DNA of 32,012 nt from Spirochaetes bacterium RBG_16_49_21 (GTDB lineage Bacteria; Spirochaetota; UBA4802; UBA5550): positions 1-32,012 of the forward strand of contig MIBJ01000078.1 of NCBI GenBank assembly GCA_001829495.1, given 5' to 3'. Positions 23,314-29,264 of the stretch are shown here, one piece after another. The translations under genes were made by a program, and so were the position numbers. The notes under the pieces were generated by a model. The model had not been told where the DNA came from and did not search any database. It saw nothing but the letters and a program-made list of their open reading frames with translations. Every line of letters begins with the position of its first letter. The stretch's first letter is position 1.

Positions 23314-24909
23314 ATGAGCGATAAAAAAATCACGATATACGACACGACCCTGAGAGACGGCGCGCAGACCGTGGGGATATCCTTTTCCCTGAACGACAAG
23401 CTCCTTATCGCCGGAGCGCTCGACCGGCTGAGGATCGATTACATCGAGGGCGGGTGGCCCGGGTCCAACCCCAAGGACGACCAGTTCTTCAAGGAGATCA
23501 GAAAAGAAAAATTGCGCCATGCGAAGGTGGTCGCCTTCGGCTCGACCCGGCACAAGAGCCTCGCCTGCGCGAAAGACAAGCTCATCCAGGCCCTGGTCGT
23601 TTCAAAGGCCGAGATCATAACCATAGTGGCCAAGACCTGGGACTTCCACGTCACCCACGCCCTGAACATCGGCTTACAAGACAACCTCAGGCTCGTGTAC
23701 GACACGATCGCCTACCTGAAGGACAAGGGGCGTGCGGTGTTCTTCGATGCCGAGCATTTCTTCGACGGATACAAGGCGAACCCCGACTATTCCCTTCAGG
23801 TAATCGACAAAGCCTTGAGCGCCGGCGCGGACATGATCGTGCTGTGCGACACCAACGGCGGCACCATGCCCGAGGAGGTGCGGCGGATCATTGAGGAGGC
23901 AAAGCAGGGCATACCGGCGCCGATCGGCGTCCACTTCCACAACGACGCGGGCATGGCTGTGGCGAACTCCCTTGCTGCGGTCCGGGCCGGAGCGGTCTCG
24001 GTCCAGGGCACGGCGAACGGGTACGGCGAGCGGTGCGGCAACGCCAACCTCATGACCCTTGTCCCGAACCTGGTCCTCAAGCTCGGGTGCAGATGCGGCG
24101 CGGAGCAATCCCTGATCCATCTCACCGAGGTGAGCAGGCTCATCAGCGAAACCGCAAACCTCGCCCATGACGAGAGGGCGCCCTACGTTGGCGTGAATTC
24201 CTTCGCCCATAAGGCCGGCTTCCATGTCTCCGGCCTCCAGAAAAACACAAAGACCTACGAGCACGTGGACCCGGACCGGGTGGGGAACCGCCGGAAGGTG
24301 CTCGTTTCAGAGCTTTCCGGCAAAAGCAATATCTTATTTAAGGCCAGGGAGCTGGGCATAGACCTGAAAAACCGGGTGGCGCTTCCGGCGGAATTATTGC
24401 AGAAAATCAAGGATCTGGAGGAGCAGGGCTTTCAATTCGAGGCTGCCGAAGGCTCATTCGAGCTTTTGCTCAGGGAGGCCGCGGGAGAGTACAAGCCGTT
24501 CTTCACGCTCAAGGGGTTCCGCGTTATAAGCGAAATGGCGGGATCGAAAAAGCTCCTGTGCGAGGCAACCATCAAGGTGGAGGTGGACGGGGTAATCGAG
24601 CACACGGCCGCCAACGGCTACGGCCCGGTAGAGGCGCTCGACAACGCGCTCCGGAAGGCGCTTGAGAAATTCTATCCGGAAATCAGGGAGATACAGCTTT
24701 CAGATTACAAGGTGCGGGTCCTGAATGAAAAGGGCGGCACCGGCTCGGCGGTACGGGTTCTCATCGATCAGAAAAGAAAAACCGAGCACTGGGGCACGGT
24801 GGGCGTATCAACCGACATTATCGAAGCCTCCTGGCAGGCCCTGGTCGACGGCATTGAGTACATGCTCTTTAAAAAGAAGGAAAAGACCACGAAGAGAAAA
24901 AAGTCTTGA
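23314..24909 (+). CDS. cimA: (R)-citramalate synthase
   Basis: A 531-residue enzyme of the HMGL-like/isopropylmalate synthase superfamily, joining pyruvate and acetyl-CoA to citramalate as the first step of the threonine-independent isoleucine route. The N-terminal TIM barrel opens with ITIYDTTLRDGAQTVGISFS, continues with YIEGGWPGSNPKD (citramalate-type, binding pyruvate), and has the metal-binding GVHFHNDAGMAVANS and GTANGYGERCGNANL. The C-terminal LeuA-type regulatory domain (about 375-520) suggests isoleucine feedback. ATG 23314 is chosen because homology begins at MSDKKITIYD; the frame is open to a TTG at 23248, but those residues look non-coding. It leads a plus-strand run of closely spaced genes to 29264. 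Confidence 0.92.
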   Translation: MSDKKITIYDTTLRDGAQTVGISFSLNDKLLIAGALDRLRIDYIEGGWPGSNPKDDQFFKEIRKEKLRHAKVVAFGSTRHKSLACAKDKLIQALVVSKAEIITIVAKTWDFHVTHALNIGLQDNLRLVYDTIAYLKDKGRAVFFDAEHFFDGYKANPDYSLQVIDKALSAGADMIVLCDTNGGTMPEEVRRIIEEAKQGIPAPIGVHFHNDAGMAVANSLAAVRAGAVSVQGTANGYGERCGNANLMTLVPNLVLKLGCRCGAEQSLIHLTEVSRLISETANLAHDERAPYVGVNSFAHKAGFHVSGLQKNTKTYEHVDPDRVGNRRKVLVSELSGKSNILFKARELGIDLKNRVALPAELLQKIKDLEEQGFQFEAAEGSFELLLREAAGEYKPFFTLKGFRVISEMAGSKKLLCEATIKVEVDGVIEHTAANGYGPVEALDNALRKALEKFYPEIREIQLSDYKVRVLNEKGGTGSAVRVLIDQKRKTEHWGTVGVSTDIIEASWQALVDGIEYMLFKKKEKTTKRKKS

Positions 24910-24941
24910 AATTTAACGGGAGAAGTCAGAGGATTAAGCAT

Positions 24942-26030
24942 ATGATAATCAATACCATAAAAAAATTATCGCTCGTTCTGGCCGCCGGCGCCCTGCTGCT
25001 GGCCGCCGGCTCCCGCGCGTATCCGTGGGAGCGGTACGACAGCGTTATCGCCGTGGTCAACGATAGTACGATCCTCGAGAGCGACGTTGACAACAAATTC
25101 GGCCAGCTTGTAAAATTCAAGCAGATACGCAAAGACCGGTACTCCCTTGAAAAGAGCAGGATCCTCGACAAGTTTATCGAAGACGCCCTCATACTGGAGG
25201 CCGCGACCGAGGAAGCCATAGTCGTGAACGACAAGCGCGTGCTTCTGCAAATCGAGGAGTTCATGCGGCAGTACTTTGCGCCGAAAATCCAGGATAAAAA
25301 AAAGCTCGATAAATTCATATCAAAAATGATAAGCAGGCTTGCAAAGAAGATCAACGACGAGCCGGTGATTATAGAGGATAAGGAGATCGACGCGCAGCTC
25401 GACGCGTTCATCAATTTCCTCGAAACGAAAAACCAGCTCCCGTTCAGGGACTCTTTTGAAGAAATACGCTCCCACATCAGGAAGGAGCAGGTCATGTCCA
25501 TAGCCATCGGCGTCACGCCGCCTTCCAAGGAAGAAGCCACGGACTGGTTCAAAAAAAACAAGGGCCACCTGGGAGACGAGGTCTGGATCAAGCATATCCT
25601 CATACGGCCTGCCGGGGGCTCGTTCACGGCCGAGCGTGACGCGAACCGGAAGATATCCGAAATCAGGGAAAAGATCGTCGCCGGCGGATCCTTTGAAAAT
25701 CTGGCCGGCAACTTATCGCAGGATTACGAGACTGCGGCAAAAGGCGGGGACGTCGGATGGAAAATGCTCGCGGAGATGGACCCCAATTTTGCCGGACACG
25801 TCAATACCATGAGAACCGTCGGCCAGATATCCCCGGTCTTTAAATCAGGGTACGGATACCACATCGTCAAGCTCATGGGCAGGCGTTCCCTCACCTACGA
25901 CAGGGTTGAGCGGCTGATCATGTATAAGCTCTACAATGAAAACATGCAGCACCAGTTCAGGAAATGGGTGATGAAGAAAAAAAAGGAATCCGATATTCTG
26001 ATATTCATGAAGGAATACATCCAGGTGTAG
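24942..26030 (+). CDS. SurA-like periplasmic peptidyl-prolyl isomerase/chaperone
   Basis: A 362-residue exported protein with a signal peptide (IKKLSLVLAAGALLLAAGSRA). The N-terminal chaperone region has the SurA-like DSVIAVVNDSTILESDVD and a long helical middle. A parvulin-type PPIase domain covers about 215-320: WIKHILIRPAGG, GGSFENLAGNLSQDYETAAK, GGDVGW, FKSGYGYHIVKLMG. Such proteins help fold outer-membrane proteins. ATG 24942 is supported by AGAGGA eight bases upstream. The longer TTG start overlapping the cimA stop would spoil the signal peptide. It lies 32 bp after cimA and 68 bp before the radical SAM gene, with a hairpin repeat in the latter gap. Confidence 0.85.
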   Translation: MIINTIKKLSLVLAAGALLLAAGSRAYPWERYDSVIAVVNDSTILESDVDNKFGQLVKFKQIRKDRYSLEKSRILDKFIEDALILEAATEEAIVVNDKRVLLQIEEFMRQYFAPKIQDKKKLDKFISKMISRLAKKINDEPVIIEDKEIDAQLDAFINFLETKNQLPFRDSFEEIRSHIRKEQVMSIAIGVTPPSKEEATDWFKKNKGHLGDEVWIKHILIRPAGGSFTAERDANRKISEIREKIVAGGSFENLAGNLSQDYETAAKGGDVGWKMLAEMDPNFAGHVNTMRTVGQISPVFKSGYGYHIVKLMGRRSLTYDRVERLIMYKLYNENMQHQFRKWVMKKKKESDILIFMKEYIQV

Positions 26031-26098: not shown

Positions 26099-27574
26099 TT
26101 GAATTCAAACATACTCATATACATAGAAAACGCCTCCGACGACCGGGATCTCACCTTTGCCGGCAGCTTCCTGGCGGAGAAGCTCTCCGCAGCGCTTAAG
26201 AAGCTCGACAACACGGGCGAGATTTTTTACTCAGCCCCTTCAGCATATTCCGGAAGGCTCTCCGGAGATAAAAACTGCTTTATCCGGACCGGGCTTGACG
26301 ACATCGGATTCTGGAAGGATATGTTTTCCCGCACCGGATCGGATCACCTGTGCAAGATCCATGCGGAATCGCCGTTTCTCGACGCTTCCCTGATCCGGGA
26401 GATGGTCGACCTGCATCTGAAATACCTCGCGGAATTCACCTTTTCGGAAAATCTTCCCCCCGGCTTTTCCGGTGAGATCATAGCCAAGGATCTCATCGCA
26501 TCGATACCGGAGCTCGCGGAGAAAACCCTTCCTTTAAATCAGGTGATCAAGTCGAACATCAATCAGTTCGACATTGAGCTCTACTATGCGGACCCGGATA
26601 TCAGAGACAAGCGCCTTTCGTTCCTCGCCGGCGACAAGCGGGACAAAAAAATCATGGAGAATATCTTCTCCTCGGTCAACAAGATCCCCGCCTATTCTGA
26701 AATCAGGGACGTGATTGAAAAAAATCCCGAGGTACTCTACATCGGGCCCTCATACCTTGAGGTGGAGCTCACCGGCGCGTGCGACCTGGACTGCCTCTAC
26801 TGCTACCGGAATACCCTTAAAAAGCCTCACCCGGACATGGACGCGGAGCTATTAAAAAAAATAATCGGCCAGATGCGGTCGTTCGATCTTCCCTACACCG
26901 TATGCTACGGCGGATCCGGCGAGCCGATGATGCACCCGGGGTTTTATGAGATACTCGGCTTTACCCAGGAGGAACCGCTCGTTGAATCGATCATCGTTGA
27001 GACGAACGGCCTGTATGCCGACGCCAACTACCGCAATTTCATCCTCAACCATGGATCGAAAATCAAAACCATCGTTGACATGAACGGTATGAACGCGGAA
27101 ACCTACCTGAAGCTCCACGGCAAGGATTGCTTCGACCAGGTACAAAGGAATATCCTCTCCCTTAATGAGGCAAGCGGCGATCGCCTCTACATCCAGGTCA
27201 TGAAGATCGGCGAAACCGAGCCCTTCCTCGACGCCTATTACGACTTTTGGGAAAAACAGAAGATATCGATCATCTTGCAGAAGCAGAACACGTATCTGGG
27301 AAGGGTCCGGGACCGGCGCTATTCGGACCTTACGCCCCTGGACAGGGTTCCCTGCTGGCACCTCCAGAGGGACCTGTTTATCCTTTCGGACGGGAGCGTG
27401 TCCTTCTGCAAGCAGGACGTCGACGGCGAGTGGTCGTGCGGGAACGCCGGCGCCGCAACCATACCCCTGCTCTGGGACAAGAAAAAAGAAAGCTTCGTCA
27501 AGGACTACAAAAGGGACTACGCCACGGCCCCGGACTGCAGATCCTGCGACGAGTGGTATACCTTTAATTTTTAA
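26099..27574 (+). CDS. spiro-SPASM radical SAM protein with degenerate nucleotidyltransferase-like N-terminus
   Basis: A 491-residue protein of the spirochaete-specific spiro-SPASM type. The radical SAM core starts at about 218 with the 4Fe-4S ligands Cys228, Cys232 and Cys235 (GACDLDCLYCYRN) and GGSGEP (271-276). A SPASM-like tail follows, with VPCWHLQRDLFI, DGSVSFCKQD and PDCRSCDEW, which would hold an auxiliary cluster. Residues 1-200 resemble the SpsF-type cytidylyltransferase encoded next door: HAESPFLDASLI matches TGDNPFTDPGFA, and the later ENLPPGF motif matches SNLPLGT. They lack the R-x-x-S-x-R-x-P-x-K nucleotide loop, so that domain is probably inactive. TTG 26099 is a well-supported start, with AAGGAGAT nine bases upstream. 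The substrate is unknown. Peptide or sugar modification is the usual scope of SPASM proteins. Confidence 0.85.
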   Translation: MNSNILIYIENASDDRDLTFAGSFLAEKLSAALKKLDNTGEIFYSAPSAYSGRLSGDKNCFIRTGLDDIGFWKDMFSRTGSDHLCKIHAESPFLDASLIREMVDLHLKYLAEFTFSENLPPGFSGEIIAKDLIASIPELAEKTLPLNQVIKSNINQFDIELYYADPDIRDKRLSFLAGDKRDKKIMENIFSSVNKIPAYSEIRDVIEKNPEVLYIGPSYLEVELTGACDLDCLYCYRNTLKKPHPDMDAELLKKIIGQMRSFDLPYTVCYGGSGEPMMHPGFYEILGFTQEEPLVESIIVETNGLYADANYRNFILNHGSKIKTIVDMNGMNAETYLKLHGKDCFDQVQRNILSLNEASGDRLYIQVMKIGETEPFLDAYYDFWEKQKISIILQKQNTYLGRVRDRRYSDLTPLDRVPCWHLQRDLFILSDGSVSFCKQDVDGEWSCGNAGAATIPLLWDKKKESFVKDYKRDYATAPDCRSCDEWYTFNF

Positions 27575-27615
27575 TCGCGCTCAACCTCGAACCCATCGGT
27601 TCCGATAATACAATC

Positions 27616-28371
27616 ATGAAACCAACGGTCACGGCAATAATCCAGGCGCGCATGAATTCGACCCGCCTCCCCGGAAAGGCGATGATGGACCTCGCGGGCA
27701 AGCCGATGCTTCGCCACGTGTTCGAGCGGGTTTTGGCCGTTGCCGGCGTCGACCGCGCGGTCCTGGCGACCTGCGACAGCGGCGAGAACGTGAAGATCAT
27801 CGATTTGGCCCGGTCCATGGGTATCCCCGTGTTCATCGGATCGGAGGATAACGTCCTGGAACGATTTCACCGGGCGGCGCAGGAGTTCGGCGGCGATTAT
27901 ATCCTCAGGGTAACCGGCGACAACCCCTTTACCGACCCCGGCTTCGCCGCCAAAACCATCGAGATAGCCCTCTCCGCTCGTGCGGACCTCTGCTACCTGT
28001 CGAACCTTCCCCTCGGAACCGGCGCGGGAATAATCAGAAAATCCGCCCTGGACGCTGCGTATCTGCACAGCGACGAGCCGTACCAGTTTGAGCACGTGTC
28101 GCCGTACATCAAAGAGCATCCGGAAATCTTCAAGATCATAACCCGTGAGATCGAGCTCGCTAATCCCTTCACCAGCCTGCGCCTCACGGTCGATACGCCC
28201 GAGGATTACGAGCTCGCGTCGATCATCTACCGCAATTTGTACAAAGGCGCGCCGTTCCCCTTCTCGGAAGTAGTGAAATTTCTGGAACAGAAACCGGGTC
28301 TTGCCCGTATTAACGCCCGCATCGATCAGCGCTCCATGACCCATTCAAGCATCCGATGCAACACCGCATAG
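27616..28371 (+). CDS. spsF: SpsF-like cytidylyltransferase (COG1861)
   Basis: A 251-residue nucleotidyltransferase. AIIQARMNSTRLPGKAMMDL (7-26) is the nucleotide-binding loop of the CMP-sugar-forming family, and GDNPFTDP (about 97-104) supplies the metal-binding Asp. The family activates acidic or modified sugars with CTP, as in spore-coat and nonulosonate pathways. Which sugar is used here is unknown. It follows the radical SAM gene by 41 bp and overlaps the next gene by 16 bp, so the three are probably co-expressed. No strong ribosome-binding site is seen before ATG 27616, consistent with translational coupling. Confidence 0.82.
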   Translation: MKPTVTAIIQARMNSTRLPGKAMMDLAGKPMLRHVFERVLAVAGVDRAVLATCDSGENVKIIDLARSMGIPVFIGSEDNVLERFHRAAQEFGGDYILRVTGDNPFTDPGFAAKTIEIALSARADLCYLSNLPLGTGAGIIRKSALDAAYLHSDEPYQFEHVSPYIKEHPEIFKIITREIELANPFTSLRLTVDTPEDYELASIIYRNLYKGAPFPFSEVVKFLEQKPGLARINARIDQRSMTHSSIRCNTA

Positions 28372-29264
28372 TTTCCATAGTAACCGGCTGGGGCAGCGGC
28401 CTCGGCACCGGCCATGTCCAGAGAATGGCAAGCCTCGCGAGTTTCCTGAACCGCAGCAAGGGAATTTCGGCTTTCCTTGTCGCAGGCCGGAAACCCGACT
28501 TCCTCCCTTTTGAACTGCACGACTGCTTCCTCCCCTCGATCAAACCGGGTACCGGATGCATAATCCGGGACATGCGGGATTCCTCCGAGGAAGAGATGCG
28601 GGAGCTGAAAAAGATCGGGAGCGTCGTAACCATCGACGACCGCGGCCCCGGGAGGCGGATGGCGGACGCAGCCATTGATCTTCTGCCGAATCCGGAGAAT
28701 AGGGATCATAAAAAAGAATCGTTCATATATGGGTATAATTTTATCGACTCTCTAAGGAAGCTTAATGAGGAGCATATTGAAAAAAACCTCGACGCGCTCC
28801 TTTACTGCGGCTATAAACCGGCAGCGGAGACAGTCGATTTTATCCATTCGCTTATCCCCCGGAATAAAATCTGCGCCGTTCTGCACGGCATGGAAACCTC
28901 TATTATTTCCGGCGGCATGGCGATTTCGCTCAGCCAATCATACGCCGAGACGATCCTGTCCGCCAGGGTATTGATCTCGCATTTCGGCATAGCCCTGTAC
29001 GAAGGATATGCGTGCGGGTGCAGGCTCGTTTGCGTCAATCCGACCGGATATCATTCCCAATTGGCCGATATCGCGGGAAACGATATCGATGCGGTGAATC
29101 TCGGGCTCCTGAGTGAAGTCGACCGCGGCAAAGCGCAGGAAATAATCAGCAATCTGATCGACAATCCTACAGCAGACAGGATTGATCCCCGTGCCGTGTG
29201 CGAAAAAATTGAAGCCGGCCTTGAGCGCTTCTATGAGGATATCAAGCCGTATCTTGACGGGTGA
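28356..29264 (+). CDS. spsG: SpsG/PseG-like sugar-nucleotide hydrolase or glycosyltransferase
   Basis: A 302-residue protein with the GT-B-like fold signature of PseG/SpsG. Near the start, GSGLGTGHVQRMASLA (about 13-28) contains the His20 that corresponds to the catalytic His of PseG, and VVTIDDRGPG and ISHFGIALYEGYACG follow. PseG removes UDP in pseudaminic acid synthesis, and SpsG is its spore-coat relative. The exact substrate cannot be told. Pairing with an SpsF-type enzyme is known from other bacteria (spsF-spsG). The 3' end overlaps the convergent alpha/beta hydrolase gene by 23 bp. Confidence 0.75.
   Translation: MQHRIVSIVTGWGSGLGTGHVQRMASLASFLNRSKGISAFLVAGRKPDFLPFELHDCFLPSIKPGTGCIIRDMRDSSEEEMRELKKIGSVVTIDDRGPGRRMADAAIDLLPNPENRDHKKESFIYGYNFIDSLRKLNEEHIEKNLDALLYCGYKPAAETVDFIHSLIPRNKICAVLHGMETSIISGGMAISLSQSYAETILSARVLISHFGIALYEGYACGCRLVCVNPTGYHSQLADIAGNDIDAVNLGLLSEVDRGKAQEIISNLIDNPTADRIDPRAVCEKIEAGLERFYEDIKPYLDG

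Follow-up and report, generated by a model that had tools for sequence, protein, structure and literature searches.

A spirochaete radical SAM-SPASM protein with a degenerate cytidylyltransferase domain, its SpsF and SpsG partners, and a proposed role in flagellin glycosylation

We analyzed a 32,012-nucleotide stretch of DNA from Spirochaetes bacterium RBG_16_49_21 (assembly GCA_001829495.1, contig MIBJ01000078.1), hereafter the window. Three adjoining forward-strand genes encode a radical SAM protein of the spiro-SPASM family, an SpsF-like cytidylyltransferase, and an SpsG/PseG-like protein. The N-terminal part of the spiro-SPASM protein is a degenerate relative of its SpsF neighbor. Among sampled Spirochaetota, spiro-SPASM occurs only in genomes that encode flagellin and is usually followed directly by spsF. 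The family also appears to have dropped its radical SAM motif repeatedly while keeping the cysteines of an auxiliary iron-sulfur cluster. We propose, with a confidence only a little above even, that the trio is a CMP-nonulosonate module for flagellin glycosylation of the periplasmic flagellum, in which spiro-SPASM would be a handling or adaptor factor with an optional radical step.

Results

The spiro-SPASM gene (26099..27574, + strand) starts with TTG and encodes a protein of 491 aa. The protein is a member of NCBIfam TIGR04321 by score (375.4 bits against a curated cut-off of 250, residues 68-491 matching profile positions 75-510 of 510) and is the single match over the cut-off in the window's genome; the family model names no function. 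After a gap of 41 bp follows the gene for the SpsF-like protein (27616..28371, + strand, 251 aa; Pfam CTP_transf_3, E 1e-30), and its reading frame overlaps that of the SpsG/PseG-like protein (28356..29264, + strand, 302 aa) by 16 bp. An earlier interpretation made from the letters alone (the sequence-only reading) had described the trio with these coordinates, strand, and gap, and we confirm them.

That reading had also claimed that the start of the radical SAM protein mirrors SpsF, and this is borne out at several levels. Residues 2-214 make up a complete cytidylyltransferase-like domain (mapped as residues 1-214, 26099..26740, + strand, by hhalign, PDB profile search, and Foldseek). The segments that the reading had quoted from the two proteins align with a local score of 76, compared with 54 for the best of 1000 shuffles, and BLASTP of the first 205 residues against the SpsF neighbor as sole subject gives E 2e-6. 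In NCBIfam, the SpsF protein of the window in turn hits the spiro-SPASM model in its N-terminal section (E 6e-4). When the two family profiles are aligned with hhalign, they match over 217 columns with E 3e-17, as a single comparison. In the PDB, the cytidylyltransferase 6oew of Leptospira borgpetersenii is hit by positions 1-224 of a profile made from 32 spiro-SPASM proteins (E 8e-11). The AlphaFold model of spiro-SPASM, built with 78 sequences, has a pLDDT of 94 and matches 6oew in Foldseek with a TM of 0.73 by target length. The comparison with nucleotidyltransferase folds that the reading had suggested for residues 1-205 thus returned a cytidylyltransferase fold and not an unrelated one.

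Family-wide counts were taken from 121 loci of 54 families, namely the window and 120 fetched neighborhoods, usually, though not in every case, one for each genus. Coordinates came from 80 positive genomes, one per genus, with 15 further genera left out; the alignment for structure prediction took 77 of the 80 named loci, L170, L203, and L219 being among the longest or shortest. Dropping the short open reading frames (ORFs) of L070, L075, and L101 leaves 118 proteins for alignment counts, or 117 when L077, which ends at a contig edge, is also dropped.

The domain lacks the signature of an active enzyme. As the sequence-only reading had noted for the window, the nucleotide-binding loop R-x-x-S-x-R-x-x-x-K is missing, and a search of the first 214 residues finds it in none of the 118 spiro-SPASM proteins. 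The same loop is present in 31/31 aligned SpsF rows and in all 91 ORFs of the fetched loci, SpsF or fusion, with scores above 150 bits, including five with long N-terminal extensions. Because of this difference, activation of a sugar with CTP by the N-terminal domain is very unlikely, as judged from sequence; binding of a sugar by it is possible. The window protein carries Glu90 (26366..26368, + strand) in alignment with an SpsF aspartate that we take to bind metal. This Asp-to-Glu change had been read as a second sign of degeneration, which holds for the window protein and not as a family trait: we rejected it as a mark of a dead family since Asp is kept in 80/118 relatives and Glu occurs in two only, the window's being one. 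The SpsF protein of the window has both the nucleotide loop and the TxDN motif, and Q10, R12, S15, R17, K21, D102, N103, D193, and D197 are invariant in the 31 rows.

Outside the N-terminal domain, spiro-SPASM has the Pfam domains Radical_SAM and SPASM. In the window protein, the radical SAM motif CDLDCLYC (Cys228, 232, and 235; 26780..26803, + strand) is intact. It is followed by a twitch/SPASM domain (27335..27571, + strand; Pfam SPASM and BtrN match) with Cys419, 437, 480, and 483. BtrN is the closest match of the radical SAM part in both sequence (E 3e-21) and fold (Foldseek TM 0.72). All four auxiliary cysteines are kept in 117/117 aligned proteins, and their spacing of 18 and 3 is found in 117/118, the exception being the truncated L077. 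SPASM domains of the seven-cysteine form carry two clusters; the four cysteines here correspond to one auxiliary cluster, and the two-cluster form is not indicated. The SPASM protein with an auxiliary iron-sulfur cluster is thereby supported as one of twitch/SPASM type.

The radical SAM cysteines are conserved differently. Among the 117 aligned proteins, all three are present in 69, none in 45, one in three, and two in no protein, such that CxxxCxxC is lost in 48/117. Mapped onto a tree, the motif changes at least 15 times, nine of them forced by well-supported branches, compared with about 37 changes in shuffles; the exact number is unsure, as the tree was made without the motif columns by a quick method and 37 of its 114 inner branches are open. 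This unrooted tree does not separate gain from loss, and we read the changes as losses because it is implausible that three cysteines were regained independently. Motif-less proteins are encoded by G056 (1.14 Mb, treponeme-like), genus g44 (2.8 Mb, Treponema denticola-like; locus L117), and family f15 (Brachyspira-like), these labels, and Borrelia-like below, being our inference for the sampled genomes. Given that the gene persists in the 48 cases without the motif, the function common to all lineages cannot be radical catalysis. The claim that the radical SAM core modifies a sugar may suit the window protein, where the motif is intact, and fails as a universal role. Since the SAM-binding cluster has repeatedly been dropped and the auxiliary cluster is kept in every complete sequence examined, the latter must do something that does not depend on radical catalysis. 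We also tried an association between an intact motif and spsF linkage (59 linked and 6 unlinked loci with the motif, 27 and 15 without it; Fisher p 0.001) and dropped it, as independent tree pairs, few of them informative, gave no support.

Linkage to spsF and spsG is the rule, as the sequence-only reading had anticipated. Of the 121 loci, 109 hold at least 3 kb downstream and were used for this count, 12 shorter ones being left out; in 96 of the 121 the downstream sequence reaches 7.9 kb or more. Immediately after spiro-SPASM and in its orientation, SpsF and SpsG are both encoded in 81/109 loci, SpsF alone in seven, and neither in 21. SpsF therefore lies directly 3' of spiro-SPASM in 88/109 loci, a pattern seen in 38 of 50 families. 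A search of the genomes of 20 of the 21 unlinked loci found SpsF encoded elsewhere in all 20; the remaining one, G193, has SpsF 4 kb downstream. With one linked genome (G002) and the window's own added to the 20, the search was positive in 22/22. In G010, NeuB and SpsF are adjacent (contig C3:252027-253663) and spiro-SPASM is on another contig. In 35/121 loci, from 21 families, flaA follows downstream at a distance of 4.2-7.5 kb and in the same orientation, one FlaA representative being confirmed by Pfam (E 1.7e-82). Two treponeme genomes that were checked have flaA together with an amidase gene at another place in the genome.

Across 392 sampled Spirochaetota genomes, spiro-SPASM is present in 302 at E 1e-20 or better, 289 of these passing the curated cut-off. 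Flagellin (PF00669) is found in 350 of the 392, NeuB in 305, and the Maf/MptE-like family PF01973 in 318. Flagellin and PF01973 are present in each of the 302 genomes with spiro-SPASM, many of which have three or four Maf-family matches, and 288 of the 302 have NeuB. Going by the family name and frames of about 570-660 aa, these PF01973 matches are probably the Maf proteins that transfer nonulosonates. The 90 genomes without spiro-SPASM comprise all 42 flagellin-less genomes, 36 small, Borrelia-like genomes of family f39 (PF01973 in 0/36), and 12 that are positive for flagellin and PF01973. All genomes without flagellin belong to one of three families (f45 genus g96; f49; f50 genera g157 and g161), and flagellated relatives in f45 and f50 (G297, G244, and G307) have spiro-SPASM. 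SpsF was searched for in 80 of the 90 (the 42, the 36, G315, and G319), with no match in 77; three f49 genomes gave weak partial matches (E 6e-17 to 2e-11), which we take for other cytidylyltransferases.

The third protein of the trio is recognizable by fold. Its model (pLDDT 94) has a GT-B fold in Foldseek, and near its N terminus stands GxGH-x-x-R, which we presume to mark the PseG/SpsG family. Attempts to name the family by sequence were unsuccessful in the PDB (no match up to E 10), Pfam, and NCBIfam, including the PseG model TIGR03590, leaving the fold alone informative. A treponeme relative scores 49.7 bits against TIGR03590, whose cut-off is 153.55.

Discussion

The distribution of flagellin, Maf, and NeuB, together with the partial flaA linkage, favors flagellin glycosylation over a general system for surface sugars. 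Of the earlier proposal of an undescribed surface-sugar modification system, the sugar pathway linked to spsF and spsG stands, and the general surface target gives way to flagellin. Assignment of the trio to a flagellin nonulosonate pathway is well supported. In this pathway, SpsG would strip UDP from a precursor sugar, NeuB, encoded elsewhere in the genome, would make the nonulosonate, SpsF would activate it with CTP, and Maf proteins would transfer it to FlaB. The degenerate domain of spiro-SPASM might hold the nonulosonate, CMP-nonulosonate, or the SpsF dimer, and the protein might assist SpsF as a handling or adaptor factor, a role that would be kept in all lineages and need the auxiliary cluster. 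We prefer such a non-radical role because the radical cluster is dispensable in evolution, whereas the auxiliary cluster and SpsF-like domain are not. In lineages with an intact CxxxCxxC, the window's included, the protein may in addition perform a radical step on the bound sugar, with a BtrN-like oxidation or epimerization as the likeliest reaction. Both the adaptor role and the radical step are suggested only weakly by these data.

This proposal fits with what has been described of spirochaete flagella. Maf proteins transfer nonulosonates to flagellin. The excerpted text of PMC4065374 agrees. In the T. denticola work as excerpted in PMC9481697, the FlaBs carry a 450.2-Da glycan that is essential for filament assembly and motility, and putative glycans on Leptospira FlaB1 sit at the core-sheath interface according to the excerpt of PMC13144727. 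In the literature seen, the genes for spirochaete flagellin glycans are largely unassigned. The proposal would place a phylum-wide gene set in this pathway and provide testable candidates. The FlaB glycan was reportedly found to be a substituted nonulosonate of the pseudaminic type in the primary T. denticola study. For radical SAM evolution, the family also offers a natural experiment in which the SAM-binding cluster is dropped repeatedly within one family.

Several points weigh against the proposal. Homology, linkage, co-occurrence, and motif losses are what is observed, and the pathway is inferred from them; the genome counts partly reflect shared ancestry and are not independent. No NeuB match was obtained in 14 of the 302 genomes with spiro-SPASM, and although most of the 14 are incomplete, G045, G025, G267, and G347 are 91-98% complete. 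NeuB and Maf are not confined to flagellated species, since among the 42 genomes without flagellin seven encode NeuB and four give a weaker PF01973 match. Of the 12 flagellin- and Maf-positive genomes without spiro-SPASM, ten are 71-89% complete and two, G315 and G319, are 93-96% complete. The SpsG assignment is also loose: PseG (3hbn, E 2.6e-5) ranks 29th in Foldseek behind GT-B glycosyltransferases and epimerases, Pfam and NCBIfam offer the window protein no family that passes its cut-off, Glycos_transf_1 being a weak match at E 0.063, and an SpsG model matches only 14 of the 22 genomes searched. In the window's genome, NeuB, flaA, and the trio are on separate contigs, and no recognizable pathway gene adjoins NeuB among neighbors whose translations were judged by eye. 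As a separate observation, G315 and G319 have flagellin, NeuB, and Maf and lack both spiro-SPASM and SpsF, which represents either true loss or an assembly gap.

The alternatives differ mainly in what they make of the radical cluster and of the target. The losses of CxxxCxxC could mean that spiro-SPASM is a pseudoenzyme twice over, a flagellin-glycosylation chaperone or switch in which a dead cytidylyltransferase is joined to a radical SAM fold, the auxiliary cluster is the sole essential metal site, and radical catalysis is an ancestral trait discarded many times. The auxiliary cluster may then act as a sensor of redox state or iron that gates the glycosylation of flagellin; we regard this as a minority view that deserves to be kept in mind. 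The opposite case, that the radical step is essential, would have spiro-SPASM modify the SpsF/SpsG sugar presented by its N-terminal domain, with motif-less relatives having changed function. BtrN, the best match in sequence and fold, was crystallized with 2-DOIA, and the majority of aligned proteins, the window's among them, retain the motif. This case is nevertheless rather unlikely, as complete loss of the three cysteines in 45 of the 48 motif-less proteins, through at least 9-15 changes, left the auxiliary cysteines in place, and motif-less genomes still encode SpsF.

With respect to the target, the trio may make a cell-envelope polysaccharide, its link to flagella being the shared ancestry of motile spirochaetes. 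Nonulosonates do occur on envelope glycans such as Legionella lipopolysaccharide, Leptospira has nonulosonate gene clusters (PMC3438082, excerpt), and the amidase and SurA-like isomerase encoded nearby have envelope functions. This explanation also seems unlikely, and slightly more so, given that the flagellin-less genera of f45, f49, and f50 all lack spiro-SPASM and, apart from the three weak f49 matches, SpsF, that their flagellated f45 and f50 relatives keep spiro-SPASM, and that part of the loci are linked to flaA. Spiro-SPASM could instead be the flagellin nonulosonate transferase itself, considering its co-occurrence with flagellin and SpsF and an N-terminal fold of the type that handles CMP-sugars. 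As a candidate for a missing transferase it is weakened by the Maf-family proteins already present in all 302 genomes, and it matches no glycosyltransferase family in Pfam or NCBIfam; we consider this highly improbable.

The nearest known systems each resemble part of the proposed flagellin module. BtrN (PDB 4m7t and 4m7s) shares the radical SAM core and one auxiliary cluster, and the last three auxiliary cysteines align; its chain of 270 residues has no cytidylyltransferase-like part. In Bacillus subtilis, spsF and spsG serve one CMP-legionaminate pathway (PMC7439481, excerpt), but its target is the spore surface instead of flagellin and the excerpt names no radical SAM partner. The Shewanella cluster sfmABCDE, as described in the excerpt of PMC3765264, has genes for NeuB, a SAM methyltransferase, and an ATP-grasp protein, and it provides flagellin with a substituted nonulosonate. 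Other spirochaete loci likewise carry ATP-grasp genes (37/121) and, among the scanned loci of treponeme type, a methyltransferase domain on SpsG. The Shewanella cluster as excerpted has no radical SAM gene, spsF, or spsG, and the window trio has no directly adjoining methyltransferase or ATP-grasp gene. In titles and abstract openings, with subscription papers mostly outside the search, we found no paper on spiro-SPASM or TIGR04321; titles and abstract openings likewise gave no prior account of a trio system combining SpsF/SpsG with radical SAM proteins or spirochaetes, nor a radical SAM family that repeatedly loses its motif while keeping the auxiliary cluster. What this analysis adds on TIGR04321 is the degenerate cytidylyltransferase domain, a radical cluster that has been lost repeatedly, and the association with flagellin, Maf, and SpsF.

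Other features of the loci

Fusions of SpsF with SpsG occur in families f8, f11, f21, f24, and f33. Fused frames of 810-881 aa are present in L055, L066, L079, L085, L115, L116, L117, L122, L132, L136, L138, L144, and L145, and the L138 protein has a C-terminal methyltransferase by Pfam. A glycosyltransferase-like gene is found in 44/121 loci, mostly between spiro-SPASM and spsF (for example L114:7073-8023, - strand; L138:9322-10425, + strand; L133:7064-8104, - strand); of three scanned, two had no Pfam family and the third a weak Glycos_transf_2 match (E 0.04). In two Brachyspira-like genomes, a small hydrophobic protein is encoded after spiro-SPASM in place of spsF (L060:9318-9731 and L135:9344-9781, both + strand), and a Pfam scan of the L135 protein gave no match. 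An Rfam scan of the window at gathering thresholds likewise gave none. Upstream of the trio, the window encodes a SurA-like peptidyl-prolyl isomerase (24906..26030, + strand; Pfam Rotamase), possibly in the same operon. Its cluster occurs in 41/121 loci, with a median position upstream of spiro-SPASM.

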